Assembly (NCBI GenBank): GCA_021731145.1
Contig: JAKFXX010000028.1
Coordinates: 1 to 64,000, forward strand
DNA length: 64,000 nt
Reading direction: 5' to 3'
Source: Gammaproteobacteria bacterium
Lineage (GTDB): Bacteria > Pseudomonadota > Gammaproteobacteria > Ga0077554 > Ga007554
The notes below the pieces were generated by a model that was not told the DNA's origin, did no database searches, and was given only the letters and a program-made list of their open reading frames with translations. This document shows, in pieces, positions 16,800 to 27,566 of the stretch. Position numbers and translations under genes: made by a program. Position 1 is the stretch's first letter. The number at the start of each line of letters is the position of its first letter.

Positions 16800-17936
16800 C
16801 TATTCAATAATGATTTCCTGGTCGACAAACAGCTTCCGTTCGCGAATCGCCGGTAACAGCACATTGTCGGCAAGCGAGCACCCTGTAACACCAGGGTCGA
16901 CCTGATCTTCTTTATCGCCGCCCTCCGGGGAGTGGCCTCGCCCTTCGAACAAGTGGCATAGCATGCCATTGTACCCCGGCGGCCAGGACTGCACTTCAGG
17001 AAACCGCAGCCGAAGAACCTTCAAAATAGCCATGCCGGAATAATCCAGATCCCCCCAGAAATAGGCTGGCCACGGAGAAGCATCGTTCGATAACCACCAT
17101 AGCTCCCAACTTTTCCTCCAGTGCCCATACCCTTCGCCCTGATAATGCAGACTTACCCCTGCCCGGTCACGGATGCGCTGCGCGCTGCCGCGAAACCCGG
17201 AACAATAGACCAGCGCCATGTTGGCCGCAGCGGCGGGCACACCGTCGATGGCACTGGTATAGCTATCCTGATTTTCTATAAAGAGAACGCCGGCAACGGT
17301 TTCCGGCAAATAGACATTCACCAGTATTTTTCTGGGTTTGATGGCCAGATGGGGATAGAGAGCGGCGAGCAGGTCTTCACGATTATCCAGTACCTTGGAA
17401 TGCCCCCAGAAGGATAGCGCGCTGATCTGGCGCAGATTGAGTTCGTTGCGGCCAATACCGACAATGGATATAAAACCCTTGACGACGTCCTCGGGTGACT
17501 TCCCCGGAACGACGATGGGGTGGGCCTTGAGGCGAGCGCTGTCTCCCGGGAAATGGTGTTGCGCGCGTTCAACGGCCTCCCGCCATTGGCGGAGCAGCGG
17601 CGCTTCCCTGGGGCGCGCCAGCCAGCTACGCAATGTGTCTTCCATTGCCAGATTCAGCACCAGGCGGGCACGGGCATATTCAGGTTCGTAGGGGCCGCGC
17701 CTGCGGTCAAGCTTGATGGTGAGCACGTGAAAATCGTGCTCAAGCGCGCGCAACAATCCCCATGTGCGGTCGGCATCCTGGCCGAACTGAAACAGGCGGG
17801 GAAAATGGGTTTTGTTTAGTGTCACCGCCGGCGGATGCTTCCACTCCCCGGCGGGCTTGCGGTCCAGCTTATCGAGGAACGCATGCAGCAGTTCGAGAAT
17901 TTCCCTTTCGTCTTCCAACCAGCGCGGTGCGTCCAT
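16800..17936 (-). CDS. jetD: Wadjet system protein JetD (DUF2220, plasmid-cleaving nuclease subunit)
   Basis: A 378-residue protein, the last gene of the jetABCD set. The C-terminal half resembles DUF2220/Toprim-like JetD, with the acidic motif W-G-D-L-D-Y-S-G-M near residue 295. The N-terminal half (about 1-180) matches the DNA-binding JetD N-domain, with EPEYARARL and a nearby LxxxW pattern. In characterised Wadjet complexes JetD cuts DNA after JetABC extrude a loop of closed-circular plasmid. It starts 17 bases after the jetC stop. Identity rests on motif and operon context together. Confidence 0.9.
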   Translation of the reverse strand: MDAPRWLEDEREILELLHAFLDKLDRKPAGEWKHPPAVTLNKTHFPRLFQFGQDADRTWGLLRALEHDFHVLTIKLDRRRGPYEPEYARARLVLNLAMEDTLRSWLARPREAPLLRQWREAVERAQHHFPGDSARLKAHPIVVPGKSPEDVVKGFISIVGIGRNELNLRQISALSFWGHSKVLDNREDLLAALYPHLAIKPRKILVNVYLPETVAGVLFIENQDSYTSAIDGVPAAAANMALVYCSGFRGSAQRIRDRAGVSLHYQGEGYGHWRKSWELWWLSNDASPWPAYFWGDLDYSGMAILKVLRLRFPEVQSWPPGYNGMLCHLFEGRGHSPEGGDKEDQVDPGVTGCSLADNVLLPAIRERKLFVDQEIIIE

Positions 17937-17953
17937 GAGTTCCCTCGAACAAC

Positions 17954-20900
17954 TTACGCGAGGATGCCCTCCATAAAATCAAGATCGGCCTGATGGTAGA
18001 CCGTGCGGCGATGCTGAGCCCACAGCTCCCTGATCTTTTCCTGATTACACTGTTTGCGATCGACGATCACCCGCGTGTTGAGCTGTCCACGCGGTCTGTC
18101 GCTTGGGCATTTGGCAAAGACGAATTCGTTGCTGATCAAGTCCATGTAGGGGCCGCATTTGCTGGTGGGCATGATAAAGATGAGCTGCAAACCCAGGGTA
18201 TCGGTCAAATAGCCGATCACCTCGCGTGAGCGCGCTTCATCCATCTTGGAAAAGGCCTCGTCCACCAGCACCATGCGCAAATGGTTGGCGCCCTCCGCAA
18301 AACGAAACGCCGATGTCACGGCGGCGGCGCGAATGATATAGGCCGGTGTTTCAAGTTGCCCGCCACTTCCAGTGCCGTATTCGCTCAAGGCAATTGGCGG
18401 CTTGCCGGCCACTTCCTTGTAAATCTCGTAACGGCGGTAATTGCGATAATCGGCAATACGGTCCAGCTCGCGCAACGCTTTGTGCTCGTCCTCATCGAGC
18501 AGCATCGCCATCAACTCATCGCGCACCTTGCGTGATTTATCGGAAAGCTCGGCATCGAACAGGGAGGTATCATCACCCAGCCCTGGGGACTTGACGACCT
18601 CTTCAAAAAAGCGGGCATAGTCCCTGAATTCCGGCACCCAATCATAATCGAAGCGAAAAGACTCCCGGTCGCTGCCGAAGTGATGATGTTCAAGCTCCTT
18701 GTTGAGCAAATCAATCTGCCGCTTGCCTGTGTTGATGGCCTGATAAATGGCATGGCACAGGTGAGACACAAAAGCGTTGTTGAAACTTTCCTTGAGTTGG
18801 GCAAGCTGTTGGTGTTTCTCTACCAGAATATTGTTCTTGAGGATATTGAAGACACGATCAATTTCCCGTTGCAGAGCGCAGATCGCCTTGAATAAGTCGG
18901 CATCGTATTTGCCATCGAAACCAAAATAAATAACAGCATCGCCAGGGCGGCAGCGCTGGTTGTGCGCGTCGATGGCATCGCTCATCTTGCGCTCGCTGGC
19001 ATGGAGCCGGCTTTCGCTATCCTGTTTCATCTTGAGCGCAACTTCCTGGCTGAGGTCTTGCGCTTCCTGATCCGCGGCGGTGAGTCGCTCATCGACATTG
19101 AAACCGCCCCATACCACAGCGATAGCACGCAGCGCCTCCTCGCGGCTTTCGGAATACGCTCGATTTTTATCCTGCAAGTCATTGAGCTTTTTGCAACGCT
19201 CGGTGGACTCGCGAAGCTTCTCCTCAAGTTCCCCGCTACGTTTATTGAGTTCCGCCTCCTGGACGCGCAAGGACTGCTCTTCCCCCTTGCCCTCTTCCAG
19301 TCTTTTCTCCAAATCCCGGTATTCGGCAAGATCAAGCTGACGCAGCAGATTTTCCAGCTTCCGCAAGTCACGATGAGTTTCGAGCATGGCGGCGATGGTG
19401 TCCGCGTACCCCAGGTGTTTTAAAGCATCCACCGCCTTCAATAGCGCTGCCGCGGACTGCATCCTGTCATTGGCGGCCTGCCACTCGCCGAGGATATTCG
19501 CCAGTTCCGCCTCTTTCGCACGCAGCGCTCGCTCGCGCGCCGAGGCACCGAAGACCAGCTCGCTGTCCGGTACATCGCAACGCCACATGCTGTAGTTTCC
19601 GGCACCCATGCCGTCAACCGTCAGACCGCGCCGGGTGTGGCGCAATTGCTCCGTGGACTCCACCCGCATCACCGTACCGTAGCTGGCAACGAGAAAATCA
19701 CGCGCGGTGGCATGGGTAAAATCAAGTACATGGATAATCGAATCGGCGTGCAATGCGATTTTTTCGACATCCTGGCGCGCCTTTTCACCCTGGATGACAC
19801 GCGCCTTATTGTCGCGCCCCGGCATGCGGCGCACGATGCGGATCGCCTCCGCCTCCCACTGCGGCGCAACAATAATCGAAAATCGCGCGCCACCAAGATA
19901 TCCCTCGATGGCCGACTGCCAGCGCGCATCCTTCACCTCAACGTGATCGCAGAGCACCCGTGGCTCGGCCTGCGGACATTGCTGGCGAATCGCCGCCAGC
20001 GCCTTATCAACATACGCCGGATAGCTGACCTGATGGACGCGCAGGCGCTCGATTTCCTGCGCCTTCTGATGGCGTTGTCTATCAAACTGCTCATAGCGAT
20101 CTTCACGCCGATGCACCAATTTCGAGAGGTGATCCCTAAGGCTTTCGCCATCACCGTGAATATCCGCATCATGCCAATGCGCCACCCATTGATTACTCAA
20201 CTGCTGGGCCTTGCGCGCCTCATCGAGATGATTCTCCAAGGCAGCCAAATCACCGGTGAACTCGCGCTGCATGAGAGTGCGGAAGTCGATATCGCCGCGC
20301 CTCACGTGATCGGCCACTTGCTTGCCCAGCGCCAATGTGCCGAGATCGGCCACATGCGGCACCTCATCTACCACATCGGCCTTGGACAGGCTGGCGATGA
20401 TGGCCTGGCTGTTGGCCAAATTGGATTGCAACTGACTATCCTGCACCAACAGGTCTTTTGCCTGTTCGACGAGCCGCCTGTCCTGCTCTTCACGCTGGCG
20501 CTCCAGGCGATCTTTATCTTGCAGCGCGGCGATTCCCATGCGTTGCGCTTCGAGACTCACCAACTCGTCATGAACCTGGCGGCGGCGCTGCCCCAGCAGC
20601 CGAAGCTGGTTCTCGTTGGCTGCAATGGCCGTGCGATACTCGTCCTGCCCCTTCTTGGCGGCAAGGTATTCGCGTTGGCGCAATACATACTCATGTTGCG
20701 CCAGCGTGTACTCCAGCGTGTTGAGTTCGATCCATTGTTCGATATAGCACTGGCTGTGGCGTTTGGCTTCATCGAGGATGCGGATGGAATCGACCAGTCC
20801 CGCCGCATCACGTTCCATGGCATGAATGGTTTTAAGCTGGCTGGACACCGAGCGAATCGCCTCACCCAGGTCCTTTTTCTCCAGGATTTCTTCCGCCACG

Positions 20901-21595
20901 AAGCGGTCGATACCCTGTACCGGTTTATACGCCATGAAACGGGAAAAGGCCTTGGCGGCGGCGACCGCCTCTTGTTCCGTCACGGCATCGCTGCGTCCGC
21001 GCAATGCCCCGTACAAGCGCCTCAAATAGGCCTTTTTGTTGTCGTACTTCTCAACCACCCGTTTGCCGAAATCGCCGATCAATACGTTTTGAATATTGTC
21101 CAGCGGCACGACATACTTGCCTCCCTTGTCCTCGCGCACCAACTGACTCAAGGACAATTGCTCACCGGGCAGAATCAGATATATCGCCTCATCCTGGCGC
21201 GCAACGGCGTTGTTGGCGGACAAATCCAGCCAGGCGCGCACGCCGATGATCGCGGTAAAAGGGTCCGCCGTCTCGCCGTGCGTGGGATGAAACACCGCCG
21301 CCAGATAGCCATCAGTGGGATCCAGCCGCGCATAACTACCGTCGTCGCAACCCAACACATACGAGGCCGGTGTACGCACCCGCTTGCCGCCCCGGCCGCG
21401 CTGCGTGGTCTCGTCCTGGCCTGGATTGTACTGAAACAGATTCTCGTGTGCCGCCGTCATAATCGTCTGGATTGCGTCGGCCGCCGTCGTTTTGCCGGAG
21501 CCATTGCCACCGGAAAACAGGTTGACCGGGCCAAACTCGAATTCAATGTGGGGGACATTTCCCCAGTTGATAAAAGCAAAGCGCTTAAGAAACAT
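17954..21595 (-). CDS. jetC: Wadjet system protein JetC (MukB/SMC-like ATPase)
   Basis: A 1213-residue SMC-like ATPase. Walker A is GGNGSGKTT (residues 29-37 from the chosen start). Long coiled-coil arms occupy roughly 230-560 and 720-950, separated by a hinge-like central region. Near the C-terminus come the ABC signature (GTGSGGQ) and Walker B ([13 protein letters not shown]). I chose the ATG at 21595 ([12 protein letters not shown]), which overlaps jetB by 11 bases. The ORF reaches 21649, but those 18 residues would deepen the overlap. JetC is the motor that extrudes DNA loops in the JetABC complex. Confidence 0.93.
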
Positions 21596-22271
21596 CGTCC
21601 ACGTCCATCGCTTCCGTGATTGTTTTTTCTCCGCCGGACACATCTCCACCCTGCTCCATGGCCTGCAAGGCCTCGTCGCTGACGAAGTTGACGATCATTG
21701 GATGTATTTTCAGCCATGCCTCGCCGCTGTCGATATCTTCCTCGCTCCGGTAATCGACAAGCCGCAACTGCCGCAGCCGCTGAAACAGGCGCTTGCGTTC
21801 GGTCAGTTTGTCCGGAAGGCTGCGCCCCAGCAAATTTTTCATGGCAATCGCCAACGACTCCATGGATTCCGCGACACCCCCATTTTCGTCTATCTGCCCT
21901 TCGCGCAGCGCCTTGTCGTATTGCACCCTCAAAACCAGAATCAGTGCCACCTCGTTTTGCGTCAAACGGCTGCGCAAACTGCCGCCGAAAGCGGTGTCTT
22001 CAGCGCCTTCCATGCCAGGCACCTGACTTCCGGGCGGGTATAAACGCACATACTCGAAACGCCGGTCGTGAAAGATGCGAATCCCGATCAGGCCAAGATA
22101 GTCTTCAATGAGACCGGCAACACGCAAATAGCGATCATAGAGTTGTTGTTCGACCAGGCTTTCGGCGCGGCACAGCACGCCGTAATTCATCAGGCGAACC
22201 AGCAGCTCCCGAAACTCGTCCAGATCGATGCGCTCGGCTTCCAGCGCTTTTTCCAGATAGTCACTCAGCAT
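21585..22271 (-). CDS. jetB: Wadjet system protein JetB (DUF4194, kite-like subunit)
   Basis: A 228-residue DUF4194-type protein, comparable to MukE/kite subunits of SMC complexes. Winged-helix-like segments are seen ([53 protein letters not shown]). It overlaps jetA by 11 bases upstream and jetC by 11 downstream, giving tight translational coupling. Function is inferred from the family and its fixed position in jetABCD. Confidence 0.9.
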
Positions 22272-23712
22272 GGTGGTCCGTCTCTATCAGTTCGATAATG
22301 AATTCATCGGTCAGCACAAAATAACCGGTGGGTAGTCGTAGCCCGGTCGGCTCAACGCGAAAAGCGAATTCGCTGGAACTCTGCCCGGCGGAACCCACCT
22401 CAATCGCGTGCGCGTTCATCAACAATCCCTTGGCATTTTCCACCGGCAAATGCTGGCTGCGAATGCGATGCCCTTTATTGAGGGCCGCGACAATATAATC
22501 GCGCATTTCTTTGTTATTAACAGCAAATGCCAGCTCCAATGCCTGTTGAATCAACAACTCACGACGGGCGGTCTTGTCGATCTCGCCATGCTCTTCCACC
22601 GCCGTATTCACCGCGCGCCGGCTTCGCGCTGCGTTGAGCCGCAAACTGTCTGGATCGGCCACGGCAACATTGAGCGCCGCCATGACGCGACCGGCAGCGG
22701 CTAGCCGCGCAGCCTGCCCGGACGCTTCCTGCGCCGCCAATTCCTGACAAATCGCCAGCAAGCGGCTGGGATGCCCGCCCCCGGAATAACTCAATTGGCG
22801 GATAATAATGTCCGCACGGCGCGTAAAACTGTTCAGCGCGTGGCGCAGCGCAGGCAGCATCACCTCGCTGGCATTGTGCATGCGACTTTCGATGCCGTTG
22901 AGAATCATGAGATAGAGCGACTGCCTGGGATCATCACCCTGCAATTCCGGGGCGATCTTGCGCAGCTCACGCTCCGCGCCAGTCTTGAACTCTTTCTGCT
23001 TGCGGCGCGCTTTGTTGAGCAACGCCTGAATCTCATCACGATACTTTTCCACACTGTCAGCCGACAGCCGGATAGAGAGATCCGGTATGAAGCGCTTCTC
23101 CATGAAATCGAAAAACTCGTCGCTGGCGCGCTGCACCACCTGCTGCGCCTCCACTGCCTGCACCAGGGCACGCTTGCGCTCGTCCAGCTCGGCAATCACA
23201 TCACCAAAATCACTTATGATGCGCTCGGAGTATTCAAAGGAATCCAGCAAGTCATACACCTCACCATTCTCGACAAAGGATTGCAGCGCATTGCGGGTGT
23301 TACGGGTGTTGCGGTGACGTGTTCGGAAGCGGCCACCCCCCGCCTCCACCATCGGCTGGGTAAACAGCCGCCCGAAGCGCGTGAATGCGTATGTACTTTG
23401 CAAGGTCGCCTCATCGGCCAGCCGCTCCAGCCAGCCGTGCTCGATCAAGAGATTCAACACCCAATTGGCAAGATCCCGCTCACTTCGCCCCGGCAAGGCA
23501 AACTCATCATCGGCATCGCCATCCAATAGCGGCGTGCGGGTAATCGCCTCCTGGAAAACCGCGATGACCTGCTCACGGTTATAAGTCCGGCTGTAGTCGG
23601 CCATCGCGCTATAAAGGCTGGCGTAAAACTGCCGCAGGCACTCCACGATCTGCTCGCGGTATTTGCTGGTAAGGGGGCGGAAAAAATGCTTTCTGTCGTC
23701 GGCAAAGAACAT
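22261..23712 (-). CDS. jetA: Wadjet system protein JetA (kleisin/MukF-like subunit)
   Basis: A 483-residue JetA-family protein, first gene of the operon. The N-terminus ([14 protein letters not shown], then [14 protein letters not shown]) forms a winged-helix region. A central helical part (about 150-330) contains long charged helices, consistent with the kleisin role of MukF. It bridges the JetC heads together with JetB. No Shine-Dalgarno precedes the ATG; an extended -10 box lies only 7 bases upstream. Subtype (I, II or III) cannot be fixed without alignment. Confidence 0.9.
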
Positions 23713-23727: not shown

Positions 23728-23890
23728 GCTATCGAGCCGCGACGTCCTGAAGTACGTCTCCGGCCACCATCAAAAGAGCCCCTAACAAAATGACTTTTCA
23801 AATTACTTTGAGAGATCGAGAATAGATCAAGCGACTTGGAGTCGTGACCGTAAACAGGGAACACCTACCACCAGCGGCAGTCGCTATATG

Positions 23891-23924
23891 ACGCCATTGT
23901 GATTGGTTTCAATCACAATGGCGT
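23891..23924. repeat. Perfect 15-bp hairpin inside the IS remnant
   Basis: Arms 23891-23905 (ACGCCATTGTGATTG) and 23910-23924 are exactly complementary around a 4-base loop GTTT. It lies where the transposase reading frame loses similarity to the family, so it may mark a fold-back deletion joint. Confidence 0.9.
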
Positions 23925-24338
23925 TGAGCGGGATGTCTTACGCGTCCGTAAAGAGTTGGCATTTACGGCGATCAACCGGTCACCATCGCCCCCCCCATTC
24001 GCGGTGTGCGTAGCAGAAGGATCAGCGATGGCGCGCGCGAAATCAAACTTGCCCGCCTCGCGCAGCTTGGCATAGAGCACATCGCGCATTTGGTCCCACA
24101 CGCCGGCCTTTTGCCAGGCGCGCAGCCGTCGCCAACAGGACATGCCCGACCCACACCCCATCTCTTGCGGCAGCATCTCCCAGGGAATGCCCGACAGCAG
24201 CACAAACAGAATGCCTGTCAGCATCTGGCGATCCGCCAGTTGCTTGCGACCGGGATACCGCTTGCGTCGCTGCTTGGGTGGCGGCAATAGAGGCTCTATG
24301 GCCGACCATAACGCATCATCCACCAGTTGGCGCGGCAT
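23913..24338 (-). pseudogene. IS5-family transposase, N-terminal fragment with frameshift
   Basis: The 141-residue ORF begins MPRQLVDDALWSAIEPLLPPP and contains GILFVLLSGIPWEMLPQE and the C-W-R-R-L-R-A-W-Q segment of the DUF4096 N-terminal domain of IS5-group transposases. After a run of eight G (minus strand, near 23985-23993) the frame changes. In the neighbouring frame VDRRKCQLFTDA-stop-DIPLNAIV continues the similarity for some 30 residues, so both a frameshift and a stop codon disrupt it. The catalytic DDE core is deleted. Confidence 0.85.
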
Positions 24339-24551
24339 CTTTGCTCTCCAGATAATTAGGGTACAACCAAATTATAAATGGATTATTTCATTTTGTTAGG
24401 CATTTTAAACCAATACGCCAAACCCATCCCGAAACCCTTTACAACCGCACACCAGTATGCTAAAAACAAAACAATATTCTACAAATTCAGTAGGTCTTTT
24501 CTTGAAGCGCCACTGAATCCCGCAATCAAACAAACACGGAGATATTTATAA

Positions 24552-25426: not shown

Positions 25427-26530
25427 ATGTTTCAAACGCCACATCGCTCTCCGTCACGCGTGCCCGTCTTGGTTAGCTCCTTTTTTATCACACTGTTTCT
25501 GAGTCTGGCCACCGGGCTGGTACAGGCTGGCGAATTCACCAATTTCGCAGGTCTAAAGTTCGTTGACATACCCGCCGGCCATTTCCAGATGGGCTCGTGT
25601 AAAGTGACCTCCGAAATGAAAAAGGAAAACAAAATACGCGTTTTCCTCGGCCAAGCGCCTCTCGCGGCTGATTGCCCCGAGAACAATTCCAATGTTAACG
25701 ACAACGAAACCCCACAGCATGCCGTAAGTATATCGTCTTTCCAGATGGGCAAAACCCCGATTACCCTTGGCCAGTACAAACGCTATGTCGCCGCCTCGGG
25801 AGCCACTAGAGGGTCGTCGGGCTGGAATCTTATCAACGACGACTTTATGAGATACAACGCGTATGGCGATGACGCGCCAGTGGTACAGGTTTCCTGGCAA
25901 GAGGCCAAGGATTTCATCGATTGGCTCAATAAGAACAAACCGGCGAATGACCGTGGCACATACCGCTTACCCTCAGAAGCCGAATGGGAATATGCCTGCC
26001 GTGCGGGCAGCAATCACGCGTATTGCGGCAGCAATAACGTGGATGAAGTGGCATGGCACGATGGCGACGTTCCTAAGGGCAGCGGCAGGCATCAGCAAAA
26101 TGTTGAACGCAAGGTTCCCAACGTCTGGGGACTCTACGACATGAGTGGCAACGTGTGGCAATGGGTAGAGGACATCTATCATGATAACTATCATGGCGCA
26201 CCAGCTAATGGCCGCGCCTGGACGGAGAGCAACGCGCATGCTTCACACAGCGCCCCGGACTTCAACCAGGCAAAGCAGAAACATAACAACTCCGCGCGTA
26301 TTGTGCGCGTCAGCAGCACGGATTACAGCCGGGAACAACAGGAATACGACGCCGCCATGCGCGCTCTTCACGGCTCATCCTGGAAACGCGACACCACCAC
26401 CGCTCGGGTTCTGCGCGGTGGCTCCTGGAAGTTCACTTCCGACTTCGCGCGCGCGACTTACCGCCTCGCCGCCTCGCCTGGAAACTGGTACTACGGCAAT
26501 GGGTTTCGTGTCGCCAGAACCCTGCCGTGA
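25427..26530 (+). CDS. Exported FGE-sulfatase-fold (SUMF1-like) protein, paralogue 1
   Basis: 367 residues. A signal peptide (cleavage near VQA-GEF) precedes a formylglycine-generating-enzyme-like fold: FVDIPAGHFQMGSC, QMGKTPITLGQYKRY, VSWQEAKDFIDWLN, YRLPSEAEWEYACRAG, GLYDMSGNVWQWVED and VLRGGSW. The two active-site cysteines of true FGEs, which follow the GGS motif, are absent (GGSWKFTSDFARATYR), so formylglycine synthesis is not expected. A ~50-residue segment between GRAWT and RVLRGGSW, missing from the paralogue, carries a second LHGSSWK motif, suggesting partial internal duplication. GAGGAG precedes the ATG. Possible roles are binding, scaffolding or cell-surface recognition. Confidence 0.85.
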   Translation: MFQTPHRSPSRVPVLVSSFFITLFLSLATGLVQAGEFTNFAGLKFVDIPAGHFQMGSCKVTSEMKKENKIRVFLGQAPLAADCPENNSNVNDNETPQHAVSISSFQMGKTPITLGQYKRYVAASGATRGSSGWNLINDDFMRYNAYGDDAPVVQVSWQEAKDFIDWLNKNKPANDRGTYRLPSEAEWEYACRAGSNHAYCGSNNVDEVAWHDGDVPKGSGRHQQNVERKVPNVWGLYDMSGNVWQWVEDIYHDNYHGAPANGRAWTESNAHASHSAPDFNQAKQKHNNSARIVRVSSTDYSREQQEYDAAMRALHGSSWKRDTTTARVLRGGSWKFTSDFARATYRLAASPGNWYYGNGFRVARTLP

Positions 26531-26660
26531 ACTTGCAAAGACGTAGCGCAGCAGGCATCAGGCCGTTCATATATCGATGATCCGGCGAACAACAACTGGC
26601 AGCTCCGGCATGACAAAGCGTGCAGCCACTAAAACTTGAACTTAATCTTGAGACTCAGCA

Positions 26661-27566
26661 ATGCCACAAGCACATCATCGTCCACCATCATACTTGCCCA
26701 GATCTCTTGTTGCGGCGCTGTGCCTGTGCCTGACTACCGGCCTTGCAAACGCGGGGGAATTTAGCAGTTTTATCGGCATGAAGTTCACCGACATACCCGC
26801 CGGCTCTTTCCAGATGGGATCGTGCCAAGTGGCAAGCGCCATGGCTCAAAATAACAAGAAACGTGCTTTACTTGGTCAAGCACCGCTGACAACCAACTGT
26901 CCAGGGGCCGATTTGGACGCACTGGTCAACGAGGTTCCACAGCATCGCGTCAACGTGCCAGCCTTTCAAATGAGCAAAACCGAAGTCACTCTGGGCCAGT
27001 TCAAACGCTTCATCATCGCCACTGGCCGCACTGATTTAGTCACCGACGAGTTCATGAAATACAATGCCCACGGCGACGACGCGCCGGTCGTTCATGTCTC
27101 ATGGAACGAGGCCAAGAATTTTATCGAATGGTTCAACAAGAGCAGATCGGCAACTGACCATGGAACCTACCGCTTACCTACCGAGGCCGAATGGGAATAT
27201 TCCTGCCACGCGGGCGGTAACCACCCTTATTGCGGCAGTCGCGACGTGAACGCCGTAGCATGGTTCGTCGCAAACAGCGGCAAACATCAGCAACCCGTAG
27301 GCAGCAAAAACGCCAATACCTTTGGTCTTCACGACATGAGCGGCAACGTATGGGAATGGGCAGAAGACTGTTATCACGACAATTATACCGGCGCGCCTAC
27401 AGACGGCAGCGCGTGGACGGACCCCTGCTCGAGTTCCGGGCACGTTCTGCGCGGAGGTTCCTGGAAGGGCGATATCAAAAATATGCGCACGCAAGTTCGG
27501 ATCAACGCCACAGCCGTGAGCCGGGGTAACAATATCGGCTTTCGCCTCGCCAGAACCCCACAGTAA
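26661..27566 (+). CDS. Exported FGE-sulfatase-fold (SUMF1-like) protein, paralogue 2
   Basis: 301 residues, a tandem paralogue of the preceding gene (131 bases away). Signal peptide cleavage is near ANA-GEF. The same ordered motifs appear (FTDIPAGSFQMGSC, QMSKTEVTLGQFKRF, VSWNEAKNFIEWFN, YRLPTEAEWEYSC, GLHDMSGNVWEWAED, VLRGGSW, NIGFRLART). Like paralogue 1 it lacks the catalytic cysteine pair after GGS. Shared Cys residues (SCQV, EYSCHAGG, YCGS) suggest conserved disulfides in the periplasm. No diversity-generating retroelement is nearby. Confidence 0.85.
   Translation: MPQAHHRPPSYLPRSLVAALCLCLTTGLANAGEFSSFIGMKFTDIPAGSFQMGSCQVASAMAQNNKKRALLGQAPLTTNCPGADLDALVNEVPQHRVNVPAFQMSKTEVTLGQFKRFIIATGRTDLVTDEFMKYNAHGDDAPVVHVSWNEAKNFIEWFNKSRSATDHGTYRLPTEAEWEYSCHAGGNHPYCGSRDVNAVAWFVANSGKHQQPVGSKNANTFGLHDMSGNVWEWAEDCYHDNYTGAPTDGSAWTDPCSSSGHVLRGGSWKGDIKNMRTQVRINATAVSRGNNIGFRLARTPQ

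Follow-up and report, generated by a model that had tools for sequence, protein, structure and literature searches.

A probable type I Wadjet operon in a gammaproteobacterial genome, and changes in the state of its nuclease gene jetD among close relatives

The window analysed here is a 64,000-nucleotide stretch of a genome of a Gammaproteobacteria bacterium (contig JAKFXX010000028.1, positions 1 to 64,000). Its minus strand carries four tightly spaced genes in the order jetA, jetB, jetC and jetD, running from the jetA start at 23712 to the jetD stop at 16800 (Table 1). None of the four frames has an internal stop. Overlaps of 11 bp were found between jetA and jetB (22261-22271) and, given the jetC ATG at 21595, between jetB and jetC (21585-21595); the longest jetC ORF opens upstream of this ATG, with a GTG at 21649. 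Four intact genes in this order and spacing on a single strand have the layout of a type I Wadjet. The first-pass annotation, made from the sequence letters, had described a complete Wadjet at 16800-23712, with four intact subunits in canonical order and 11-base overlaps; its limits proved to be exact, and the gene order, the open frames and both overlaps were recovered.

Table 1 Positions of the jet genes and of the insertion sequence remnant upstream of them
Feature	Position in window	Strand	Evidence
jetA, kleisin subunit, 483 aa	22261..23712	-	PADLOC JetA1 PDLC00445, 2.9e-212, profile 1-479 of 480; Pfam PF18982 JetA, 97 bits (cut-off 26)
jetB, KITE subunit, 228 aa	21585..22271	-	PADLOC JetB1 PDLC00482, 3.5e-103, profile 2-208 of 252; Pfam DUF4194, 2e-29
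jetC, SMC ATPase, 1213 aa	17954..21595	-	PADLOC JetC1 PDLC00515, E=0, profile 1-1211 of 1212
jetC-jetD gap, 17 bp	17937..17953	-	read in sequence; gap, no overlap
jetD, Toprim nuclease, 378 aa	16800..17936	-	PADLOC JetD1 PDLC00527, 1e-104, profile 2-381 of 387
IS5-family remnant, 13-bp inverted ends, 68 bp upstream of jetA	23781..24400	-	inverted repeat
Truncated transposase ORF in the IS5-family remnant	23913-24338	-	Pfam DUF4096, 6.4e-25

Type I Wadjet models were the top PADLOC match for JetA, JetB, JetC and JetD alike, with E-values that exclude chance (Table 1), so the profile search proposed in the first-pass annotation assigned all four proteins to type I. Pfam matches were concordant (PF18982 JetA, DUF4194, SbcC Walker B with AAA_29, and PF09983 JetD_C). 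JetC is single-copy in this genome and preserves, as had been read from the letters, Walker A (GGNGSGKTT, residues 29-37), the signature motif (GTGSGGQ, 1074-1080) and Walker B (VDEAF, 1111-1115), all conserved across an alignment of 11 JetC sequences that included the window's. Further, the N-terminal MukB family PF04310 is absent among the four Pfam families of JetC, which sets the locus apart from MukBEF. In JetB, a YDR motif occurs in all displayed rows, whether or not they have JetD, except for L107, which has FDR.

The Toprim triad of JetD (E221/D296/D298) is invariant in 28 JetD sequences, as are N222, Q345 and a DQE near the C-terminus, and the acidic GDLD singled out in the earlier reading occupies residues 295-298. 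Pfam JetD_C (PF09983) was matched over 71 of its 179 positions only and the N-terminal family DUF3322 was not reported at E 0.01, while PADLOC JetD1 spans residues 1-376. An AlphaFold2 model of JetD (mean pLDDT 92.9, pTM 0.71) matched, with Foldseek at E <= 0.001, only MksG (8b7f, E 4.8e-8) and two chains of Pseudomonas aeruginosa JetD (7til). VIA-align ranked 8b7f at the top (Z 10.1, rmsd 15.5, 303 aligned residues), followed by 7til (Z 9.5, rmsd 15.1, 220 aligned residues) and then by topoisomerase VI A and Spo11. With an rmsd of about 15 Å and TM of 0.2-0.36 against 8b7f and 7til in Foldseek and VIA, these matches represent local agreement of fold, the whole chains not being superposable, and the large rmsd suggests that domains are placed differently in the JetD model. 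Against the PDB, a JetD profile gave a weak MksG match (E 0.0011) plus one chance row, and phmmer with JetD found no Wadjet chain, only two chance-level glycosylase rows. Acidic Toprim residues combined with a predicted MksG/JetD fold are what is expected of JetD in a type I Wadjet.

The type I Wadjets of Escherichia coli GF4-3 and P. aeruginosa PA14 resemble the window in gene order, in their four subunits and PADLOC models, and in the Toprim triad and predicted fold of JetD. The window differs from them in its partial JetD_C match and in lying on a sequence sub-branch, with PDLC00515 and PDLC00507 as the best JetC models, whose JetA and JetC profiles recognised no Wadjet chain in the PDB (JetA at E 1; JetC at E 0.01, nor among the best 60 of 86 rows at E 10, which are full of coiled-coil noise). 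Searches of the PDB by phmmer with JetA, JetB and JetC likewise found no Wadjet chain, JetA giving one chance-level row. Because solved JetA, JetB and JetC chains went unrecognised by phmmer, and those of JetA and JetC also by profile, structural transfer rests on JetD and the family models. The MksBEFG system of Corynebacterium glutamicum supplies the closest fold to the JetD model, MksG 8b7f, but differs in its low identity (about 16-18%), the large rmsd and its other host lineage. MksBEF of P. aeruginosa, compared here by composition, shares SMC, kleisin and KITE subunits and corresponds to JetABC without JetD, whereas the window has JetD; its genome also encodes ScpA of SMC-ScpAB. Taken with the structural model of JetD, these sequences make it very probable that the locus is a complete, working type I Wadjet, as the first-pass annotation had proposed. 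The locus itself adds one further good type I Wadjet and is not a new system.

From studied Wadjets, as described in the review PMC10586767, we infer complex formation, loop extrusion, sensing of size and shape, and cleavage. JetA, JetB and JetC would assemble into an SMC complex that uses ATP to reel DNA in. When the two motors run into each other on a small closed circle, the Toprim nuclease JetD would be activated and would cut the circle.

The operon copy looks chromosomal and lies among ordinary genes. One flank holds what we take, from their sequences, to be bcp and an efflux pair; the other contains Big_7 and FGE-sulfatase-like genes identified by Pfam, together with a gene that is presumably mnmA. 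Two adjoining FGE-sulfatase-like genes occupy 25427-27566, the first recognised by Pfam and the second by DNA cross-similarity only. PADLOC gave no match among 10 neighbouring proteins (1e-5), nor for bcp and the transposase ORFs (0.01), and a defence island was rejected on this blank result for the neighbours scanned. No confirmed relative was found among viral contigs and phage records, and the plasmid search returned distant JetC relatives in 8 records, with alignments all short of 80% of the query; a phage or plasmid gene set was rejected. The plasmid-borne relatives belong to Variovorax (4), Cupriavidus (3) and Cohnella (1), Wadjet-type SMC genes that are themselves on plasmids. ScpA is present in the window's genome and MukB PF04310 was found in none of the 8 family genomes (the E. 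coli and C. glutamicum controls were detected), so the housekeeping condensin of this genome is probably SMC-ScpAB.

Upstream of jetA, the transposase ORF of the IS5-family remnant matched NF033580 at positions 3-109 of 258, with 89 bits, below the cut-off of 110. The remnant is common to the congener G006, and the aligned stretch of another congener, G004, has no room for it. No promoter-like site was found between the remnant and jetA. One occurs at the outer end of the remnant, oriented towards jetA, and a perfect 15-bp inverted repeat with a 4-base loop lies within the remnant at 23891-23924.

JetC was found in 3 of the 8 family genomes (the window's own counted), all in one genus. In G005, jetC and jetD are adjacent as in the window, and the contig ends within jetC. 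In G006, as read from an assembly that might be in error here, the operon is split: jetABC occupies about C7:401-407 kb, and jetD, intact, lies about 300 kb away at C7:95.3-96.4 kb (L032, L034). The breakpoint is the jetC-jetD gap or the last codons of jetC, where the alignments end at 17968 on the jetC side and 17938 on the jetD side; of the three genus members with JetD, window included, this one has it displaced. The displaced jetD directly follows what is presumably a response-regulator-like gene. G004 has no jet genes and retains scars at the expected places: the jetA start is represented by 69 bp (81% identical), jetC by 51 bp (98%) and jetD by 41 bp (100%). Read from the alignments, these scars, at L122:5101-5240 and L031:4417-4457, mark loss of the operon.

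All four jet genes are under purifying selection against G006, with dN/dS of 0.109 for JetA, 0.099 for JetB, 0.068 for JetC and 0.150 for JetD; against G005, the values are 0.080 for JetC and 0.185 for JetD. At the protein level the rate of change in JetD is about double that in JetA-C. With dN/dS of 0.15 against 0.07-0.11 for the other three in the G006 comparison, jetD is retained yet faster-changing. Distances of JetD and JetC are correlated across 24 rows (Mantel r 0.85, with 0 of 5000 permutations as high), which favours an old partnership with repeated loss over repeated capture.

Of 373 relatives confirmed in a GTDB scan, the best 80 were kept, and the shares given below therefore describe the nearest relatives, not all. 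In a sample of 369 genomes of the class, PF18982 JetA exceeded its cut-off in 18, distant relatives included, and gave matches below the cut-off only in 24 more; such patchiness, also within the family, is as expected of defence. A JetD profile matched in 26 of the 80 loci, among them L100, where the match is on the opposite strand; the remaining 54 gave no match. In seven of these 54 loci the sequence stops no more than 2 kb from jetC, and these were set aside. For the other 47, which extend at least 5 kb downstream of jetC, the JetD alignment was run against the entire genome; 3 of 3 positive controls were recovered. This search located JetD elsewhere in one genome (L039), a stop-broken piece in another (L078), weak matches in 2 and nothing in 43. 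Leaving L039 aside, Pfam JetD_C reported a JetD-type protein in 10 of 46 genomes; it also reported one in the window's genome and in each of the 3 controls. For 8 of the 10, an SMC-sized ORF besides the window-type jetC adjoins the JetD-type gene or lies within about 2 kb of it, which makes a second, distant Wadjet likely there; the JetC profile recognised 4 of the 8 ORFs and the rest were judged by size and place. The other two are L078 with its remnant and the genome of L101, where the stretch examined contains no ORF of this kind. By both profiles, then, 36 of 46 jetABC genomes are without JetD.

For the comparisons that follow, L039 (JetD elsewhere), L049 (JetD in two frames) and L040 (a 291-aa JetD frame) were counted as JetD-plus. 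L100 was omitted from the labels of the trees, L011, L013 and L059 from the column comparison, L011 and L013 from the JetC tree, and L080 from the JetA tree. In L059, a JetD-less MAG, jetB and jetC form a single 1439-aa frame (L059:9308-13627), by fusion or sequencing error.

In JetC of the JetD-less operons, all three motifs (Walker A, signature and Walker B) are exact in each of the 46 cases; among 28 JetD-plus rows, Walker A is exact in 25 and the signature and Walker B in all 28. Of 325 JetC columns conserved at >=95% in the 28 JetD-plus rows, 291 are conserved at >=90% in 45 JetD-less rows and 7 fall below 60%. We do not claim any JetD-docking site among the differing columns, as the contrast is confounded by ancestry. 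Median dN/dS of JetC was 0.072 over 13 non-independent JetD-less pairs versus 0.067 over 9 JetD-plus pairs. Stronger selection on JetD-less JetC, as suggested by early pairs (0.009-0.019, with dS partly near saturation), was abandoned when more pairs gave these similar medians. Lineage-typical neighbours are common around JetD-less operons, with up to 9 loci per neighbour family, in a set whose lineages are unevenly sampled and in which some JetD-plus rows (L106, L113) stand at such sites. Judged by their sequences, the JetD-less operons are not wrecks.

Trees were inferred by a quick search with SH-aLRT support only and do not give the direction of change. The JetC tree required at least 8 changes of JetD status, with or without two long rows, and the JetA tree required 8, at least 7 of them forced by well-supported branches. 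Three sister pairs differ in JetD at the same site: Microbulbifer donghaiensis and M. marinus, Sedimenticola hydrogenitrophicus SB48 and SN1189, and Pseudomaricurvus sp. HS19 and Aestuariicella albida. In the first pair, M. donghaiensis has JetD and M. marinus lacks it by both profiles. Sedimenticola SN1189 and A. albida both carry an additional, distant operon that is Wadjet-like. A fourth pair (L041 and L059) was also compared; there the L041 contig is too short to reveal the site. The Sedimenticola case and the co-divergence of JetD and JetC favour loss of JetD, and the Microbulbifer case could be a gain.

That the window's operon is a nuclease-free MksBEF condensin, which the first-pass annotation had named as the outcome that would overturn the call, is extremely improbable: PDLC00515 does score higher on the JetD-less L066 (2058 bits) than on the window's JetC (1831 bits), so JetABC alone cannot decide between Wadjet and MksBEF, but an intact jetD lies adjacent in the window at 16800-17936. 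The comparison teaches that a JetABC model match is insufficient on its own, since jetABC sets without the nuclease do exist in close relatives. That the operon is silent and decaying towards loss, as in G004, is more conceivable, though still improbable. The scars in G004, the split in G006 and the IS remnant upstream speak for decay, and the fast change of JetD, its displacement in G006 and the remnant with no promoter-like site found before jetA count against a working Wadjet; on the other side stand four open frames and dN/dS values of 0.07-0.19.

A dual or mainly chromosomal role, in which JetABC would act as an MksBEF-type accessory condensin on the host chromosome with JetD optional, is compatible with the Wadjet reading, and we regard it as rather unlikely for the window, less so than decay. 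In its favour are the ATPase motifs kept by every JetC that lacks an intact window-type JetD partner, the similar selection with and without JetD, the neighbours often shared within a lineage by JetD-less operons, and the action of P. aeruginosa MksBEF on the chromosome, as stated in PMC7485682. However, the window, G005 and G006 each retain an intact JetD on which selection is purifying, and some JetD-plus rows have shared neighbours too. ScpA was detected in 48 of 49 genomes searched (3 of them JetD-plus controls; the miss is the genome of L087), so that a second condensin is not obviously needed, and C. glutamicum MksBEFG had no detectable role in chromosome organisation according to PMC7083940. 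A complete, probably working type I Wadjet is the reading we retain for the window.

Among the relatives, JetD resembles a removable warhead whose motor is kept without it. Loss of JetD has already been proposed for Pseudomonas MksBEF, as a passage from plasmid defence to chromosome condensin (PMC10586767); this was the only source on JetD absence found in a search of mainly open-access literature. The repeated change of JetD state, partly at the same site, extends this existing idea and is not a new system. We tentatively propose, at somewhat less than even confidence, that JetD is detachable in this gammaproteobacterial JetABC lineage, having been lost, or sometimes gained, at least 8 times, partly at unchanged sites, and that the disarmed motor may be selected as a chromosome-acting condensin. 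If true, armed members such as the window's may be both chromosome organiser and plasmid nuclease. JetABC profile matches alone are no basis for annotating anti-plasmid defence. Sister lineages with and without JetD at the same site make the proposed route from Wadjet to condensin testable in matched pairs, and the family is well suited to asking what a DNA-reeling motor does alone.
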